Shown here: positions 1,153 through 35,982 of the stretch, piece by piece
How positions within the stretch are numbered: the stretch's first letter is position 1
How the letters are laid out: each line of letters begins with the position of its first letter
From: Lentisphaerota bacterium
GTDB taxonomy: Bacteria > Verrucomicrobiota > Kiritimatiellia > CAIQIC01 > Lenti-01
Reading direction: 5' to 3'
Assembly: GCA_012514035.1 (NCBI GenBank)
Contig: JAAZBB010000063.1
Coordinates: 1-64,000, forward strand
Length of the DNA: 64,000 nt
Made by a program: the position numbers and the translations under genes
Notes under the pieces: model-generated
Seen by the model: only the letters and a program-made list of their open reading frames with translations
Told to the model about the DNA's origin: nothing
The model's database searches: none

Positions 1153-4100
1153 TCAGGGATTACTTGCACACAAGCGAATACGAATGACGAGTTCATCTCG
1201 AGCACCGATAGGAATCCGCACGGTATCTTCTAAATCTATGAAATAGTCACTGTCCTTGTTTGCCAGCTGCCAGTCAAATTCTTGGTTGGGCAGCACATCA
1301 AATGTTGCAAATTCCACTGCAAACACCGTGTATCCGGTCGGCACTTTGAATTCGAAGTTTTCACTACCATCCGCAGCTAGAACGATATCTTCTTGGGGCA
1401 TTTGCACCGACAGAGTCCCTGCGAAATATGTAATGGTGTAATTTTCAAGGCCCGTGCCCTGTGCATGGCTGATGATAATATCATAATCACCTACTTCCGC
1501 CGCTGTGCCGGCCCCATCACTGCGCAGATCAACGCTGGTAACCTCGTCGTCACCGATGAGACCGCGGGAAGTAAATTCGTTGCCCGTAAAAGAATAAGTC
1601 AGCAAGTAGCCTTTGGTGATATCCATAGCTGTTATTGCCAGCGCCTTCGACGTGATGTCCGCGATCAGGACTGGTGGCGTCAGGCTGTAGTTGCCGGCGT
1701 CCGCCCCGCCCAGACTGTAGCCGGCCGCCGCGATTGCGATGTCCGCGCTGACGTCCGCCGCCGCGAACGTGAAGACCGGCGTCCCCTCCAGGGTTACTTC
1801 GTCCGGCGTTACCACGCCGGTCAACTCCGCCGTCCCGCTGGCCGTGGCCGCGGTCGTCCCGTCGTACACCTTGTCGTCCCCGGTCAGCCCCGTCACCGCC
1901 AGCGCCTTCGCCGCGATGTCCGCCGAGAGGTCCGCCGGCTGCGTCAGATCGTAGTTGCCCGCCTCGTCGCCCGCCAGCGTCAGCGCCGCGGTCACCGCGA
2001 TGTTCATGCCCACGTCCGCCTGGGCAAAGGTGCCGACCCGCGCGTCCAGCGAGACGTCGTCGCCGTCCACCACGCCCACCAACGCAGCGCCGGAAATTGT
2101 CGCGTCCGTCGTTCCGTCGTAGGTCTTGTTGTCGGCCACGGCCCCCGCCGTCATCAGTTCCTTGGCGGCGATGTCCGCCCAGAGGTCCGCCGGCTGCGTC
2201 AGATCGTAGTTGCCCGCGTCGTCGCCCGCCAGCGTCAGCGCCGCGGTCACTTCGATGCCGGTGCCGACGGTAGCCTGCGCGAACGTGCCGACCAGCGCGT
2301 CCAGCAAGACGGCGTCGCCGTCCAACACGCCTACTAGCGCGGCGCCGGAAATCGTCGCGTCCGTCGTGCCGTCATAGGTCTTGTTGTCGGCCACGGCCCC
2401 CGCCGTCGTCAGTTCCATGGCGGCGATGTCCGCCCAGAGGTCCGCCGGCTGCGTCAGATCGTAGTTGCCCGCGTCGGCGCCCGCCAGCGTCAGCGCCGCG
2501 GTCACCGCGATGTCCGTGCCCACGTCCGCCTGGGCAAAGGTGCCGACCCGCGCGTACAGCCAGACGTCGTCGCCGTCCAACACGCCCACCAACGCAGCGC
2601 CGGAAATCGTCGCGTCCGTCGTGCCGTCGTAGGTCTTGTTGTCGGCCACGGCCCCCGCCGTCGTCAGTTCCTTGGCGGCGATGTCCGCCGAGAGGTCCGC
2701 CGGCTGCGTCAACGCGTAGTTGCCCGCGTCGGCGCCCGCCAGCGTCAGCGCCGCGATCACCACGATGTCCGTGCCCACGCCCGCCTGAACAAAGGTGCCG
2801 ACCAGCGCGCCCAGCGAGACGTCGTCGCCGTCCACCACGCCTACTAGCGCGGCGCCGGAAATCGTCGCGTCCTGCGTGCCGTCGTAGGTCTTGTTGTCGG
2901 CCACGGCCCCCGCCGTCGTCAGTTCCTTGGCGGCGATGTCCGCCCAGAGGCCCGCCGGCTGCGTCAGATCGTAGTTGCCCGCGTCGGCGCCCGTCAAGGT
3001 CAGCGCCGTCGTCACTTCGATGAAGGTGCCGACGGTAGCCTGCGCGAACGTGCCAACCAGCGCGTCCAGCGAGACGTCGTCGCCGTCTACCACGCCTACT
3101 AGCACGGCGCCGGAAATCGTCGCGTCCGTCGTGCCGTCGTAGGTCTTGTTGTCGGCCACGGGCCCCTCCGTCGTCAGTTCCTTGGCGGCGATGTCCGCGA
3201 TCAGGGCTGGCGGTATTAGCGAGTAATCCTCGGCATCCGCACCGCCAAGGGTATAGCCCGTGGTGATGATCTCGATGTCTTCGCCCGCGCCGGCTGACGC
3301 AAATGTAAAGGTTGGCGTGCCTTGAAGCGTCACATCGTCATCCGCAAACACCCCTTCAAGGACCGCCGTCCCGCTGGCCGTGGCCGCGGTCGTCCCGTCG
3401 TACACCTTGTCGTCCCCGGCCAACCCCGTCACCGTCAATTTAGGTTGATATATCTTCAGCCCGTTGAAATAGAGATCGCCATCGAAGCCGCCTACGTTCG
3501 AAAATCCGTTGTAAATCGCCAAGCTGTCCAATCCTGCTCCCGGCGTGCCAGCCAAGGGTTTATCCGAAAATATATTCGTTGTCCCGGCAGGACCCAGGGT
3601 CACGACTCGCAAATCATACGTATCGGGAGACGACAGGATCAGAGTTATCCGCAATCCATTCGTCGTCATGGGGATGCCGGTGTCCCAGCGCCCGCCCCCA
3701 TCCACGATTTCATAATTGTTGCTCCCACCATTGTAGAGAAATTCAAACCGGAGTCCCGTGTTGTAGTCGGCCTCTGAATTGGTTGCGTTACCGTGCCGGA
3801 CAACAAATCCGACATATCCGCCTTCCGCGACTTGCGAGTTCTCCATCGAAAGCTGGAGCGCCTGAGACACGGCCAGGGAACTCCGGGTGAACGGGCGGTA
3901 CGCAACCGCCATGCTATATTCGTCTCCATTGGCCCATAGACCCCACGCGTTTGAATTCTCACCGGATTGGATATAGTTCAAGGTTGCGTTGTTCAAAGGG
4001 CCCGCAGTGGCAATGAAATGCCCGGCCGAGACTCCGGTCATTAGGGTCCACGGTCCCAGTCCGCTGCCGCCATTGTCGCCCGTCTGCCAGTTATCCGCAT

Positions 4101-5442
4101 ATGCCGGGTCGGAGGCATCGTCGTATGCAGGAAGGGCGGTCAAGCCATTCGGGGCGATGTCTGCATTCAACCCGGAAAAGGTGAGCGAATAGTTGCCGGC
4201 GTCAGCGCCGCCAAGAACAAAGCCGGTCACTGTAATCTCGATATCATTCGCAACATAAGGATCGACAAACGCATACACTGGCGACCCTCCCAGCGTCACC
4301 TCGTCCGGACTGATTATACCGGCAAGTTCCGTGCTTCCCGTCACGGTTGCGGTCGTGGTGCCATCAAAAAGCTTATCGTGGGCAGTAAGCCCTGGGATGG
4401 TCAAAGGTTTCGCTGAAATATCGGCACTTAGGACGGGCTGTAACAACGTGTAATCGCCGGCGTCTGCGCCTCCCAAACTGAACTCTGTGGTCGTGATTTC
4501 GATCCCGGTGCCGACATCTGATGACGCAAAAGTGAAAACCGGCGTGCCGATCAAGGTCACATCGTCCCCAGCGGCCAACCCGTCGAGACTGGGCGTGCCC
4601 CTCGCCGTCGCGGCCGTGGTGCGATCATACCCTTTGTTATCACCCGTCAAGCCCACGACAGTTAATTGGCCCGGTTGTTCGATTTCTAGACTATTGAAAA
4701 AGGCATCTCCTCCAGACTCCGTATCACGGCAATACATAACTAGGCTGTCCAGCCCCGTCCCCGATGTCCCGCCCAGGGTTTGACCGGTGAAAATATTTGT
4801 CGCACCACCGGGCCCCAACGTCACAACGCGAAGGTCATACGTATCGGCGGAAGACAACCTCAAGTTGAATTGCAGGCCGTTTGTTGTAAAAGGTATACTG
4901 GTGTTCCAACGGCCAGAACCATCGATGATTTCATACGTATTGCTTCCGCCGCTGAAGAAGAACTCGAAGCGGGCATCGGTGTTGTATTGGTCCACGGAAT
5001 TGGTTGCGTTCCCGGTGCGAACGGCAAAGCCCACCCGACCGCCAGGTGCAACCAGCGAATTTTCCATTGCCAAGAGGAGTCTTTGCGAAATGGCCAGTGA
5101 ACCGCCCGTAAAGGCGCGGAACGCAACCGCAAACTGGCGGCTATCATCACCGTTTGCATACATCCCCCATGCTGAATGGTCCGTACTGCACTGGATGTAA
5201 TTCAAGTCCGTGTTTCCCGAATTTGCACAAAAATGACCCGCCCATCCGGAGATCATGTCCTGTTCAGCCAGAAGCATCCAGGGGCCCAACCCGCTGCCAC
5301 CATTGTCGCCCGTCTGCCAGCCATCGTCATAGGCCACTCCAGAAGCTTCGTCGCTTCCGGAAGTAGCCGCAGATAATGTCTTGACGGTCCCCATCAACAT
5401 GCCCAGTACAGCTAATACAACCCGCGCAACCCGCATTCTCAT
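1153..5442 (-). CDS. Large secreted protein with tandem YDG/MBG-type repeats and two copies of a beta-rich 'WANG/GHF' domain
   Basis: 1429-aa ORF, signal-peptide-like N-terminus, repeated ...ADNKTYDGTTDATISGA...GADAGNYDLTQPADL.ADIAA units; CAGGAGAAC RBS-like sequence before ATG. Confidence 0.92.
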   Translation of the reverse strand: MRMRVARVVLAVLGMLMGTVKTLSAATSGSDEASGVAYDDGWQTGDNGGSGLGPWMLLAEQDMISGWAGHFCANSGNTDLNYIQCSTDHSAWGMYANGDDSRQFAVAFRAFTGGSLAISQRLLLAMENSLVAPGGRVGFAVRTGNATNSVDQYNTDARFEFFFSGGSNTYEIIDGSGRWNTSIPFTTNGLQFNLRLSSADTYDLRVVTLGPGGATNIFTGQTLGGTSGTGLDSLVMYCRDTESGGDAFFNSLEIEQPGQLTVVGLTGDNKGYDRTTAATARGTPSLDGLAAGDDVTLIGTPVFTFASSDVGTGIEITTTEFSLGGADAGDYTLLQPVLSADISAKPLTIPGLTAHDKLFDGTTTATVTGSTELAGIISPDEVTLGGSPVYAFVDPYVANDIEITVTGFVLGGADAGNYSLTFSGLNADIAPNGLTALPAYDDASDPAYADNWQTGDNGGSGLGPWTLMTGVSAGHFIATAGPLNNATLNYIQSGENSNAWGLWANGDEYSMAVAYRPFTRSSLAVSQALQLSMENSQVAEGGYVGFVVRHGNATNSEADYNTGLRFEFLYNGGSNNYEIVDGGGRWDTGIPMTTNGLRITLILSSPDTYDLRVVTLGPAGTTNIFSDKPLAGTPGAGLDSLAIYNGFSNVGGFDGDLYFNGLKIYQPKLTVTGLAGDDKVYDGTTAATASGTAVLEGVFADDDVTLQGTPTFTFASAGAGEDIEIITTGYTLGGADAEDYSLIPPALIADIAAKELTTEGPVADNKTYDGTTDATISGAVLVGVVDGDDVSLDALVGTFAQATVGTFIEVTTALTLTGADAGNYDLTQPAGLWADIAAKELTTAGAVADNKTYDGTQDATISGAALVGVVDGDDVSLGALVGTFVQAGVGTDIVVIAALTLAGADAGNYALTQPADLSADIAAKELTTAGAVADNKTYDGTTDATISGAALVGVLDGDDVWLYARVGTFAQADVGTDIAVTAALTLAGADAGNYDLTQPADLWADIAAMELTTAGAVADNKTYDGTTDATISGAALVGVLDGDAVLLDALVGTFAQATVGTGIEVTAALTLAGDDAGNYDLTQPADLWADIAAKELMTAGAVADNKTYDGTTDATISGAALVGVVDGDDVSLDARVGTFAQADVGMNIAVTAALTLAGDEAGNYDLTQPADLSADIAAKALAVTGLTGDDKVYDGTTAATASGTAELTGVVTPDEVTLEGTPVFTFAAADVSADIAIAAAGYSLGGADAGNYSLTPPVLIADITSKALAITAMDITKGYLLTYSFTGNEFTSRGLIGDDEVTSVDLRSDGAGTAAEVGDYDIIISHAQGTGLENYTITYFAGTLSVQMPQEDIVLAADGSENFEFKVPTGYTVFAVEFATFDVLPNQEFDWQLANKDSDYFIDLEDTVRIPIGARDELVIRIRLCASNP
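1900..3180 (-). repeat. In-frame 255-bp (85-aa) tandem repeat array in the YDG/MBG gene
   Basis: AGGTCTTGTTGTCGGCCACGG recurs at 2121, 2376, 2631, 2886 and 3141, exact 255-bp spacing. Confidence 0.92.
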
Positions 5443-7696: not shown

Positions 7697-7772
7697 GGTT
7701 CCTCCGCAAATTTTACATCCGGTCGGAATCAGTCTCCCCGGGCTTCCGCGCCTTGGCAAGACCTTTCCCGGG

Positions 7773-7991
7773 CACGCCTGTTTCGTTGACTACGATCGGC
7801 CACATTTGGAGTGCGGCGGGAAGCGAGGCTCGGCGAGCGCCACGCCGCTTTGGGGGTTGGAAACCGAACGGTCAGTCCAAACAGCTAAAGCGGGGCCGCG
7901 GCGCCAAGCACCTTGCCCCCGCACTCCTAAATAGCCAACCATGGAAGTCGGCGGTTCGATTCCGGTCGGTCAATGAAACGAAGATGCGCCC
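7773..7991. mobile_element. MITE-like non-autonomous element, copy 1 (degenerate termini)
   Basis: TTTCGTTGAC.../...GTCAATGAAA termini; internal GTGCGGCGGGAAGCGAGGCTCGGCGAGCGCCAC shared with copy 2; flanked by perfect 11-bp direct repeat CCTTTCCCGGG (7762-7772, 7992-8002). Confidence 0.78.
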
Positions 7992-8020
7992 CCTTTCCCG
8001 GGGGCAGTGTTCCGGACGGG

Positions 8021-22318: not shown

Positions 22319-22900
22319 TTACTCCAATGCGTTTTCGATCGCCGCCCGCAGCCCCGGATCATCCGGTTCGGTGCGGCTGCCGTAGCGGGCGAGGACCTGA
22401 CCAGCGCGGCCGATGAGAAACTTGTTGAAGTTCCAAGAGATGGCCCCGCCGAATTCCGGATGGATTTTTTTATCGGTCAGGAAGGCGTAGAGCGGGTGGA
22501 TGTCCGTGCCCCTGACGGAAATCTTGGAGAACATGGGGAAGGTGACGCCGTAGGTCAGGGAACAAAACTGCTTGATCTCGGCCTCGGTGCCCGGTTCCTG
22601 CCCCATGAAATTATTGGCGGGGAAACCCAGAACGACAAATCCGCGGCCCTTGCAGGCCTGATACAGCTTCTCCAGCCCGGCATATTGCCGGGTGAAGCCG
22701 CATTTGCTGGCGACGTTGACCACCAGCAGGACCTTGCCGCGGAACTCCGCCAGGGACAGGTCATGACCACCAATGTCCTTCATCGTGAAATCATAAATAC
22801 TGTTCACGGGGTCTTCTCCTCGGGCTGGGCTGCCGGCTGCCAGCAGGCCGAGGACCACGACTTGCGCCAACCATGCGTTCATCACGGGCTTCTTCATCAT
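22319..22900 (-). CDS. Glutathione peroxidase family protein with signal peptide
   Basis: IYDFTMKDIGGHDLSLAEFRGKVLLVVNVASKCGFTRQYAGLE..., GFPANNFMGQEPG, WNFNKFLI; start MMKKPVMNAW. Confidence 0.93.
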   Translation of the reverse strand: MMKKPVMNAWLAQVVVLGLLAAGSPARGEDPVNSIYDFTMKDIGGHDLSLAEFRGKVLLVVNVASKCGFTRQYAGLEKLYQACKGRGFVVLGFPANNFMGQEPGTEAEIKQFCSLTYGVTFPMFSKISVRGTDIHPLYAFLTDKKIHPEFGGAISWNFNKFLIGRAGQVLARYGSRTEPDDPGLRAAIENALE

Positions 22901-22946
22901 GCCCCGGAACCTATGCCGGGCCGCCCCGTTTGGCAAATCCGCCGGG

Positions 22947-23174
22947 AGACGCATCCCTCTTTCATTGACAACGATCGGCCCAATTTGAAGTGCGGCGGGA
23001 AGCGAGGCTCGGCGAGCGCCACACCGCTTTTGTTGGGGGGGCAATCGAACTGGCAGCCCAAACAACCAAAGCGGGGCCGCCTCCCGTTGGTCGTTGTCCC
23101 CGCACTCCAAAAAGGCCGGCCGACGGGAGCAAGATGTTTCATGTCCGGTCGGTCAATGAAACGGGGATGCGCCC
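22947..23174. mobile_element. MITE-like non-autonomous element, copy 2
   Basis: TIRs GACGCATCCCTCTTTCATTGAC / GTCAATGAAACGGGGATGCGCC (19/22 complementary); flanked by perfect 9-bp direct repeat TCCGCCGGG (22938-22946, 23175-23183). Confidence 0.82.
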
Positions 23175-23245
23175 TCCGCCGGGGCCGGAGGAATTAATGA
23201 ATTGTCAACCGAAACGCGAATCGGCAAGCTTGCGCGCCAGAATGG

Positions 23246-24913
23246 ATGAGCCTAATGAAGCGTAATCTGGATGAACTGCAAGCCGGCCCGCACGATCTGC
23301 TGATCGTCGGGGGGGGCATCTACGGAGCAGCACTGGCCCGCGAGGCGGCCAGTCGCGGTCTGAAGACGGCCCTGGTGGAGCAGGCGGACTTTTGTTCCGG
23401 CAGTTCCGCCAACAGCCTGAAAATCATCCACGGCGGTCTGCGCTACCTGCAGCAGGCGGACCTGCCGCGGGTGTTTGAATCCATCGGCGAACGGAGCACC
23501 GTGCTGCGGACGGCCCCGCACCTCGTGGCCCCCGCGCCGTGCCTCATGCCGACACGGGGCATATTGATGAAAAGCCGCTGGGTCATGGCCTGCGGCCTGG
23601 GCGTGAACGACATCCTCAGTTGCCGCCGCAACCGCCACCTGGACCCGACGCGGAGAATCCCGAACGGCCGCACCTTGTCGCGCCGCGACTGCCTGGAGAT
23701 TCTGCCGATGCTGCGCACCACCGGCACCACCGGCGCCGCGCAATGGTACGACGGACTGGCCCACGACACGGAACGGCTGGCCATTGGCATGCTGAAGGCC
23801 GCCACGCGTGCCGGGGCGACGGCAGCCAATTACGTCAAGGTGCGCCGCTTGTTGCTCGAGGGCGACCGCGTGACTGGGGCGGCGGTGGAAGACCGGCTGG
23901 GCGGCGGCACCTTCGACATCCGGGCCGGGCTGGTCATCAATGCGGCCGGGCCGTGGATCGAGCAGGTGCTGGCAGGCATCGGCCGGCCTGTGGCCAACAC
24001 CGCTCCGCATCTCGCGTTGGGCATGAACCTGGTCATCCAGAACTGGCCCGTCACCACCCACGGGCTGGGACTGCAATCCACGCGCAGCAGTCGATTGTAT
24101 TTCTTCATGCCCTGGAGGGGCGCAGTGCTGGCGGGCACCTACTACCGCGAGCACCAGGGGCCGCCCGAGGCCTTGCGCGTGACAGACCGGGACATCGACT
24201 CCTATCTGGATGCGATCAATTCCTGCCTGCCGGGCACCGCCATCACGCGCAATGACATTCTGGCGATTCAAGCCGGCATTGTTCCCAGCCTGAAGCCGGC
24301 CCGGCCCGACCGCGAACCGGTCCTCCTGCGCCACTACCGGCTGGTGGACCACGCGCGCCGCGACGGCATCGAAGGCCTGCTTTCCATCTGCGGGATCAAG
24401 TACACCACCGCCCGCGGGGTCGCGGAACAGGTCATCGAGGTCGCGGCGGCCAAGCTTGGCCGGCTGATCGCGCCTTCCACCACGCGTCGGGATCCGCTTC
24501 CGGGCGGCGAAATCCCCGACTGGGCCTCCTTCCGCCGCGACATGGCGGCGGCGCATGCGGACGTGCCGGCGGAGGAATTGGAGCGGCTGCTGGTGCTCTA
24601 CGGCACCGAGGCCAAAGACATCCTGGCCAGCGCGGCCACGCTGACCGGAGCCGATGCGTGCATGCGGGCCGAAGTCCTGTTCACATTGGACGAGGAAATG
24701 CCGCAGACGCTGGCCGACCTCGTCTTCCGGCGCACGGGACTGGCCTCGGCGGGTCGCCCCTCGTCTGCCGTCCTGCGGGTTTGCGCCGAAACCATGGGAA
24801 CCGCCCTGGGCTGGACCAACGGCCGGCTCCAAGATGAAATTGCAGCGGTCGAGAACGCCCCCACTCTTTGGCAGGCGGGATGCGCCTTGGCCCCCGATGG
24901 GACGCGCGCATGA
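23246..24913 (+). CDS. FAD-dependent glycerol-3-phosphate dehydrogenase family protein
   Basis: DLLIVGGGIYGAALAREAASRGLKTALVEQADFCSGSSANSLKIIHGGLRYLQQADL...; INAAGPW. Confidence 0.88.
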   Translation: MSLMKRNLDELQAGPHDLLIVGGGIYGAALAREAASRGLKTALVEQADFCSGSSANSLKIIHGGLRYLQQADLPRVFESIGERSTVLRTAPHLVAPAPCLMPTRGILMKSRWVMACGLGVNDILSCRRNRHLDPTRRIPNGRTLSRRDCLEILPMLRTTGTTGAAQWYDGLAHDTERLAIGMLKAATRAGATAANYVKVRRLLLEGDRVTGAAVEDRLGGGTFDIRAGLVINAAGPWIEQVLAGIGRPVANTAPHLALGMNLVIQNWPVTTHGLGLQSTRSSRLYFFMPWRGAVLAGTYYREHQGPPEALRVTDRDIDSYLDAINSCLPGTAITRNDILAIQAGIVPSLKPARPDREPVLLRHYRLVDHARRDGIEGLLSICGIKYTTARGVAEQVIEVAAAKLGRLIAPSTTRRDPLPGGEIPDWASFRRDMAAAHADVPAEELERLLVLYGTEAKDILASAATLTGADACMRAEVLFTLDEEMPQTLADLVFRRTGLASAGRPSSAVLRVCAETMGTALGWTNGRLQDEIAAVENAPTLWQAGCALAPDGTRA

Positions 24914-26659: not shown

Positions 26660-27187
26660 ATGACGCGAGCATTGTCCATCATCCGGGGGGCGTTGGGCGC
26701 CTGGATGGCTGCATTCCTGGTTGCCGGGTGCGAATTCACCACCTCGGATCAGAGCGAGGGCACGGTGAGCCTGGCCGAGCTGCAAGGGCAGAACGTCGCT
26801 CCGGAAACACAGCCCCCTGCGCAAACCGAATCCACCAGCAGCGCCCCGGCCACCACCCCGGTTGTCACGGGCGGCTCCGGCATCGGCCCGCGGGGTGGAG
26901 GCGGCGGGTTCCTGTGGAAGCCGGTGGGTGAAAATTCCCGCAAACTGGTGATCCTGCTGCCGCCCCAATACACCGGGCAAGTCAGCGGCGTCTATGTGGC
27001 CAATTCCAAGGGCGGCGCCATTGAGGCGGGCTCCTATACGGGCGTGGGCAACGGCAACCGGACCCACTGGCGCTTTTCCAAGCCCGGTTCGGGGTATGGC
27101 CAGAACATACTTGCCGTGGCGAATTTGAAATCCGGCGGCGCGGTACACTGGCCCATCCCCAACGGAGCATCCCGCACCAGCTACTGA
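26660..27187 (+). CDS. Putative lipoprotein, 'GGGFLWKPVGENS' family, copy 1
   Basis: Lipobox LVAGC; C-terminal ~90 aa paralogous to the product at 35563-35982. Confidence 0.75.
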   Translation: MTRALSIIRGALGAWMAAFLVAGCEFTTSDQSEGTVSLAELQGQNVAPETQPPAQTESTSSAPATTPVVTGGSGIGPRGGGGGFLWKPVGENSRKLVILLPPQYTGQVSGVYVANSKGGAIEAGSYTGVGNGNRTHWRFSKPGSGYGQNILAVANLKSGGAVHWPIPNGASRTSY

Positions 27188-35562: not shown

Positions 35563-35982
35563 CTAGTATTCGACCCGTGCGGCGCCGGAGGGAATCGGCC
35601 AGTGGACAGATCCGCCTGCATTCAGATCGGCCACCGCTAGGATGTTGTTGCCGTAGGCCCCACCCTTCTGGGGAAAGCGCCAGTGGGTGCGGCCACCGTT
35701 CCCCACGCCGGTATATACGCCCACATCGAGCACTTGACCGTCACCGCTGGCGACATGGACGCTGCCGGCCTTCCCCGTGTATTGGGGCGGCAGCAGGATC
35801 ACCAGCCGCCCGGAATTCTCGCCCACCGGCTTCCAGAGGAATCCACCGCCTTCCCCCTGGTCTCCGCTTCCGCCCCCATCGGAACCACTGTCATCCGACC
35901 AGCGATCACAACCAGCGGTCAGCAGCAACAACGTGGCTCCCAGAAGGACCACCCATCGGGCCGGGGGGAATGTTTTCTTCAT
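35563..35982 (-). CDS. Putative lipoprotein, 'GGGFLWKPVGENS' family, copy 2
   Basis: Lipobox LLTAGC; shares GGGFLWKPVGENSGRLVILLPPQYTG...YTGVGNGGRTHWRF...NILAVADL with copy 1. Confidence 0.75.
   Translation of the reverse strand: MKKTFPPARWVVLLGATLLLLTAGCDRWSDDSGSDGGGSGDQGEGGGFLWKPVGENSGRLVILLPPQYTGKAGSVHVASGDGQVLDVGVYTGVGNGGRTHWRFPQKGGAYGNNILAVADLNAGGSVHWPIPSGAARVEY

Follow-up and report, generated by a model that had tools for sequence, protein, structure and literature searches.

The window, a stretch of 64,000 nucleotides from an assembly of 2.78 Mb in 86 contigs (94% complete), contains a short non-coding segment with terminal inverted repeats (TIRs) between two divergently oriented genes. 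A first-pass annotation made from the letters alone had described it as a MITE moved by a parent element acting in trans. The locus raises the questions of whether this segment belongs to a mobile family, which kind of transposase would move it, and what its interior represents.

A MITE family with 9-bp target duplications

Direct reading and a script both placed the element at 22947-23174. The annotated length of 228 bp was retained, while the match between the TIRs, given as 19/22, is rather 19 of 23 positions between 22947-22969 (left TIR, plus strand; AGACGCATCCCTCTTTCATTGAC, family consensus GGGCGCATCCCTGTTTCATTGAC) and 23152-23174 (right TIR, minus strand, with the minus-strand sequence GGGCGCATCCCCGTTTCATTGAC). 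The element is enclosed by a perfect 9-bp direct repeat, as had been claimed: the target-site duplication (TSD) TCCGCCGGG is present at 22938-22946 and again at 23175-23183. Five parts follow each other on the plus strand between the TIRs. The left arm of the shell (22970-22983; AACGATCGGCCCAA) is common to most copies. It is followed by the REP half A5 (22984-23030; TTTGAAGTGCGGCGGGAAGCGAGG...CGCTTT), a hairpin with a GGAGT-type foot that occurs as the same module at the RAYT gene of G000:C27, by a variable spacer separating the REP halves (23031-23067), and by the REP half A3 (23068-23111; AAAGCGGGGCCGCCTCCCGTTGGTCGTTGTCCCCGCACTCCAAA). The right arm is of type R1 (23112-23151), has a hairpin of its own (CCGGCCGAC...GTCCGGTCGG) and is present in copies with REP type B too. 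When folded, the whole element forms one long hairpin. No transposase gene was found within 22947-23174, and the open reading frames crossing the element are chance readings of the repeat. The element fills the intergenic gap between a minus-strand gene for a glutathione peroxidase homologue (gpx), which starts near 22900, and a gene whose start is at 23246 and whose product resembles glycerol-3-phosphate dehydrogenase (GlpD-like).

The second copy that had been annotated at 7.8 kb, with its own flanking repeat, was recovered at 7771-7991 on the plus strand. It combines A5 with an older half, A3b, and a right arm R2, one base is missing at its outermost left end, and it is flanked by the perfect 9-bp TSD CCTTTCCCG at 7762-7770 and 7992-8000. 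Other repeats are also present in the window. At 1888-3207 a 300-nt stretch occurs five times at a spacing of 255 bp and with 84-93% identity, with further repeats at 1639-4664; these repeats probably belong to a gene of repetitive structure for a surface or adhesin-like protein. Two inverted-repeat pairs of 125 and 146 bp (72-78% complementary) connect 26878-27168 and 35582-35872, which are likely paralogous genes in opposite orientation.

When the source genome was searched with the element, 55 matches were obtained. A TIR pattern of 19 bases with at most three mismatches gave 62 genome matches versus 0 for the reversed control. The length of the TIR was set at 23 bp by a position matrix (GGGCGCATCCCYGTTTCATTGAC; consensus GGGCGCATCCCYGTTTCAYTGAC). 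The census resulted in about 41 TIR-bearing places in the own genome rather than only two, 36 with an interior of type A, three with type B and two with neither. Across the class, the shell TIR was found in 31 of 348 genomes. Copies with paired ends, those of relatives included, span 108-507 bp.

The flanks of the 25 copies with both ends were compared with those of shuffled partners. Flanking 9-mers were 62.7% identical versus 28.6 ± 3.2% for the shuffled partners, whereas at lengths of 4-8 and 10-13 bp the identity was only 0.26-0.40, so that the peak lies at 9 bp alone and the duplication is significant over the family. Seven of these copies have a perfect TSD at the predicted position, and the TSDs of C36 and C39:7771 are also perfect once a frayed end is allowed for. 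In shells of relatives, further TSDs were perfect or matched at 8/9 positions. A 9-bp direct repeat enclosing TIRs that match at 17/23 positions or more was found once in the real window and not in any of 20 shuffled windows, and chance is excluded for this reason.

In the sister species, no element was present beside the homologues of the flanking genes. The position is thus not conserved between orthologues, and on the time scale of the genus the insertion is a recent one. The element is absent beside each of the two genes, but a strict empty site was not found in the sister genomes, where gpx and the GlpD-like gene either match separate contigs or have another gene as their neighbour.

These data also bear on the idea that the element is a conserved regulatory or RNA element (a terminator, attenuator or riboswitch-like hairpin) and not mobile DNA. 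Its strong hairpins, its intergenic location between two divergent genes and the near invariance of the 44-bp half A3 would fit such a function. However, 9-bp TSDs occur at many sites, and their statistics refute regulation as the primary nature of the element; it is absent beside the orthologous genes in sister species, the interiors of the family are mosaic and a transposase-bearing relative exists (see below). A primarily regulatory nature is therefore hardly credible, while a secondary regulatory effect on the neighbouring genes is possible. The element has TIRs, belongs to a set of short copies with a TSD of fixed length at independent sites, lacks a transposase gene and has an autonomous partner with the same TIRs. 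It is confirmed as a member of a real MITE family. The mobility proposed in the first-pass annotation is supported by the many copies with independent TSDs and by the sister orthologues without the element.

An ISKra4-family insertion sequence with the same TIRs

A transposase gene flanked by the same TIRs was identified in the relative G185. At G185:C367:2143-3901, two TIR copies that are perfect at 23/23 positions lie 1,759 bp apart and enclose a gene of 495 codons. The encoded protein matched PF06782 above the cut-off (E=4e-11) and NF033572 with E=1.1e-49 and 169.7 bits, which does not reach the curated cut-off of 205; because of this score the transposase is regarded as a divergent member of the ISKra4 family. 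Fragments of homologues that are 84-85% identical to the G185 protein were found at G191:C485 and G192:C374, and there the TIR begins 9 bp past the coding match. The target duplication of the G185 element is clear over 8 bp only and lies in low-complexity flanks. Members of the ISKra4 subgroup make 9-bp target duplications.

The shell and the G185 insertion sequence have only the TIRs in common. As perfect TIRs bound an ISKra4 transposase in G185, the missing parent is identified by its family, and the earlier proposal of a parent acting in trans is supported by the sequence of this full-length relative. In the own 94%-complete assembly, no intact ISKra4 element bounded by these TIRs was found, and inspection of the orphan TIRs in this genome yielded no TIR-paired transposase gene. 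An ISKra4 element in C19 (about 22718-23648) was considered as the autonomous partner and rejected; it is decayed or truncated and has a different TIR (GGGCGCATCTGCGAT...). The shell of 23-bp TIRs is a non-autonomous unit that would be moved in trans by an ISKra4-family DDE transposase generating the 9-bp duplications.

Upstream of the transposase, ISKra4-type elements carry a small divergent gene (G000:C19:22718-23650, L206 1082-2012; L186 2217-2549). In the own genome, the small gene upstream of the C19 ISKra4 transposase matches DUF6788 (PF20586, E=6.5e-12), pointing to a putative conserved accessory gene of this group of ISKra4-type insertion sequences.

REP pairs inside the shell and their RAYT genes

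The interior of type A consists of the half A5 (TTTGGAGTGCGG...CGCCGCTTT), the variable spacer and the half A3 (AAAGCGGGG...CCCCGCACTCCAAA), and the two halves form inverted hairpins closed by GGAGT/ACTCC feet. In the own genome, module A is also found without shell arms on both sides of a gene in C27 that encodes the 183-aa protein P0001, the motif lying 57 bp before the gene and 16 bp after it. P0001 matched NF047646 with E=2.2e-19, but its 69.8 bits do not reach the curated cut-off of 80, nor was the Pfam threshold for Y1_Tnp reached; among solved structures, TnpAREP (PDB 4er8) is its best relative. By these comparisons, P0001 is identified as a RAYT. A contig search with the RAYT protein gave two loci, one of them a homologue with 73% identity in another MAG (JANYBJ010000138.1), which has diverged A halves on both sides. 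The second interior type was tested with a module-B query of 84 bp, which led to a second RAYT at C57:655-1176. This protein is 51% identical to P0001 and matches NF047646 above the cut-off (E=4e-26), and its gene is flanked on both sides by module B, which has three hairpins and differs from module A. Module B was also found inside TIR shells, in the own genome in C5, C42 and C55 and furthermore in G003, G006 and G016.

The association extends across the class. For 31 RAYT homologues, the 20.9 kb up to 350 bp away contained the REP end motif TTTGGAGTGCG or its complement 86 times and the other 59.4 kb only 12 times, an enrichment of about 20-fold; the motif was present on both sides of 15 of the 31 genes. 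In G056, REP halves are present and a TIR match is absent. Altogether 17 Y1_Tnp matches were counted in the own genome (2.8 Mb), most of them only distantly related to the RAYTs linked to modules A and B.

Because the same modules flank RAYT genes, the interior is, at the level of sequence, a RAYT-linked REP pair comparable to a REPIN or BIME, and thus a second mobile repeat whose movement by RAYT is predicted. The foot is GGAGT/ACTCC in both types A and B and neither GTAG nor CGTC; as the foot differs, the interior is said to work like a REPIN and is not filed in the GTAG superfamily. The first-pass annotation had correctly observed that the interior recurs, but since the interior is found outside the MITE as well and comes with a transposase of its own, part of this recurrence does not belong to the MITE. 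The earlier MITE reading is therefore supported yet incomplete, as the two-system nature of the interior was missed.

It was considered whether the RAYT (HUH) system might move the whole element, the TIRs being only an outer REP-like stem as in the arrangement of TIR-associated tyrosine transposases (TIRYT; PMC3733652). The folding into one long hairpin and the many Y1_Tnp genes in the genome are in line with this, but at the RAYT genes that were studied closely it is the inner module and not the TIR (GGGCGCATCCC) that lies on the flanks, and in G185 the shell TIR bounds an ISKra4 element. The 9-bp TSD does not fit HUH/Y1 transposition either, which is not known to duplicate 9 bp of the target, and movement of the entire element by RAYT is very improbable.

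The divergence of the parts indicates that shell and REP pair have separate histories. The left ends of the shells in the own genome are on average 91.6% identical and the TIRs have diverged by about 8%, whereas 18 of the 23 copies of the 44-bp half A3 in this genome are 100% identical, inside shells and beside RAYT alike. In 16 copies, 5 mismatches were observed in A3 versus 59 expected at the divergence of the left ends when one decayed copy was omitted, and 14 versus 62 when it was included. As A3 is identical in spite of the diverged TIRs, it would have spread or been homogenised separately from the shell. Within one shell each in C15, C55:7854 and C55:29680, an older A5-A3b pair is joined in tandem by a complete A5-A3 pair. 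Most simply, REP pairs would have been added to, or refreshed within, pre-existing shells; alternatively, the identity of A3 could result from strong selection or local gene conversion.

In other genera, shells with the same TIR hold other palindromic interiors. A TIR shell of 507 bp at G188:C65:46307-46813 (L190 808-1314) contains about four repeats of a palindromic unit that is about 120 bp long, and is an array that grew inside a MITE. In the own genome, a TIR-bounded copy of 414 bp at G000:C53:52232-52645 (L150 2233-2646) has a different interior. Sequence like this copy, with the TIR-like ends GGGCGCCTCTCCGGTTCATGGAC, lies beside other copies (C19:1766, C53:80308), which suggests that this interior and the GGGCGCCTCTCCGGTTCATGGAC ends represent yet another repeat family.

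These observations also weigh on a reading without a second system, according to which the interior is the decayed middle of a MITE, the ISKra4 transposase is the sole amplifier and copies without TIRs are MITEs that lost their ends. Most copies of module A are indeed borne by shells (about 36 of 41 TIR-bearing places), and several have lost one end. On the other hand, the modules on either side of RAYT genes in several genomes show no remnant of the shell arms, the interiors of sister shells that share the TIR are unrelated, A3 is far less diverged than the surrounding shell, and G056 has REP halves in a genome lacking a TIR match. An explanation by a MITE alone is therefore improbable.

The best overall explanation, held with high confidence, is a MITE shell of the ISKra4 kind with a RAYT-linked REP pair inside. 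The REP pair would belong to a separate HUH/Y1 system with RAYT genes elsewhere in the genome, and RAYT activity may place or homogenise REP halves inside pre-existing shells, so that both routes would spread the repeats through intergenic DNA. A more far-reaching version is put forward tentatively, as one possibility: two unrelated chemistries might share one vehicle, a shell that repeatedly acquires REP cargo which RAYT refreshes or homogenises in place while the DDE transposase spreads the loaded shells, forming a modular, cargo-swapping composite across the class.

Relation to known mobile repeats

The family shares the 23-bp TIRs found in G185 with ISKra4 insertion sequences (NF033572, PF06782), and its 9-bp TSD fits a subgroup of these; the element in the window differs in that it has no transposase and only the TIRs in common with them. 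Like bacterial MITEs such as NEMIS/Correia, RUP, ERIC and Nezha (PMC3733652, PMC10969869), it is on the scale of 70-300 bp, has TIRs and a TSD, is non-coding and occurs in many intergenic copies. Its TIR, TSD length and partner transposase are different, however, its interior is a REP pair of another mobile system, and several interiors are found for one TIR shell. ISKra4, RAYT and REPIN are not mentioned in a 2024 review on MITEs (PMC10969869).

Paired inverted REP hairpins with a spacer, adjacent to RAYT and extragenic, are shared with REPINs/BIMEs and the REPtrons of RAYT (TnpAREP) (PMC3116915, PMC8266576). Here the foot is GGAGT/ACTCC instead of GTAG, and most copies lie within a DDE-type MITE shell; the published REP superfamilies have GTAG and CGTC feet (PMC3733652). 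The closest precedent is the REP dimers of Anabaena variabilis, which according to a passage in the same paper are regularly embedded in a longer palindrome (PMC3733652). That passage gives no TSD, transposase partner or comparison with RAYT flanks, whereas the outer palindrome described here is a MITE for which an insertion-sequence partner was identified. DDE-type elements also meet REPs in the case of REP-targeting insertion sequences (PMC1525189, PMC8450116), but those enter a REP, while here the REP pair lies inside a non-autonomous DDE element.

Literature searches (ISKra4 with MITE; REP inside MITE) did not retrieve a description of this arrangement, the nearest being the remark in that passage of PMC3733652, and the family, with its partner named, is a candidate MITE family of the ISKra4 type, of a kind not found described in the literature searched. 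How REPs and REPINs spread is an open question, because RAYTs look domesticated and the dissemination mechanism of REPs is poorly understood (PMC8266576). REP pairs riding in a DDE-type MITE would represent a second dispersal route for REPs. They would also provide a natural dating system, in which the divergence of the shell reports when an insertion took place and that of the REP halves when RAYT last acted. What is new in comparison with the known systems is a MITE family of the ISKra4 kind that carries RAYT-type REP pairs.
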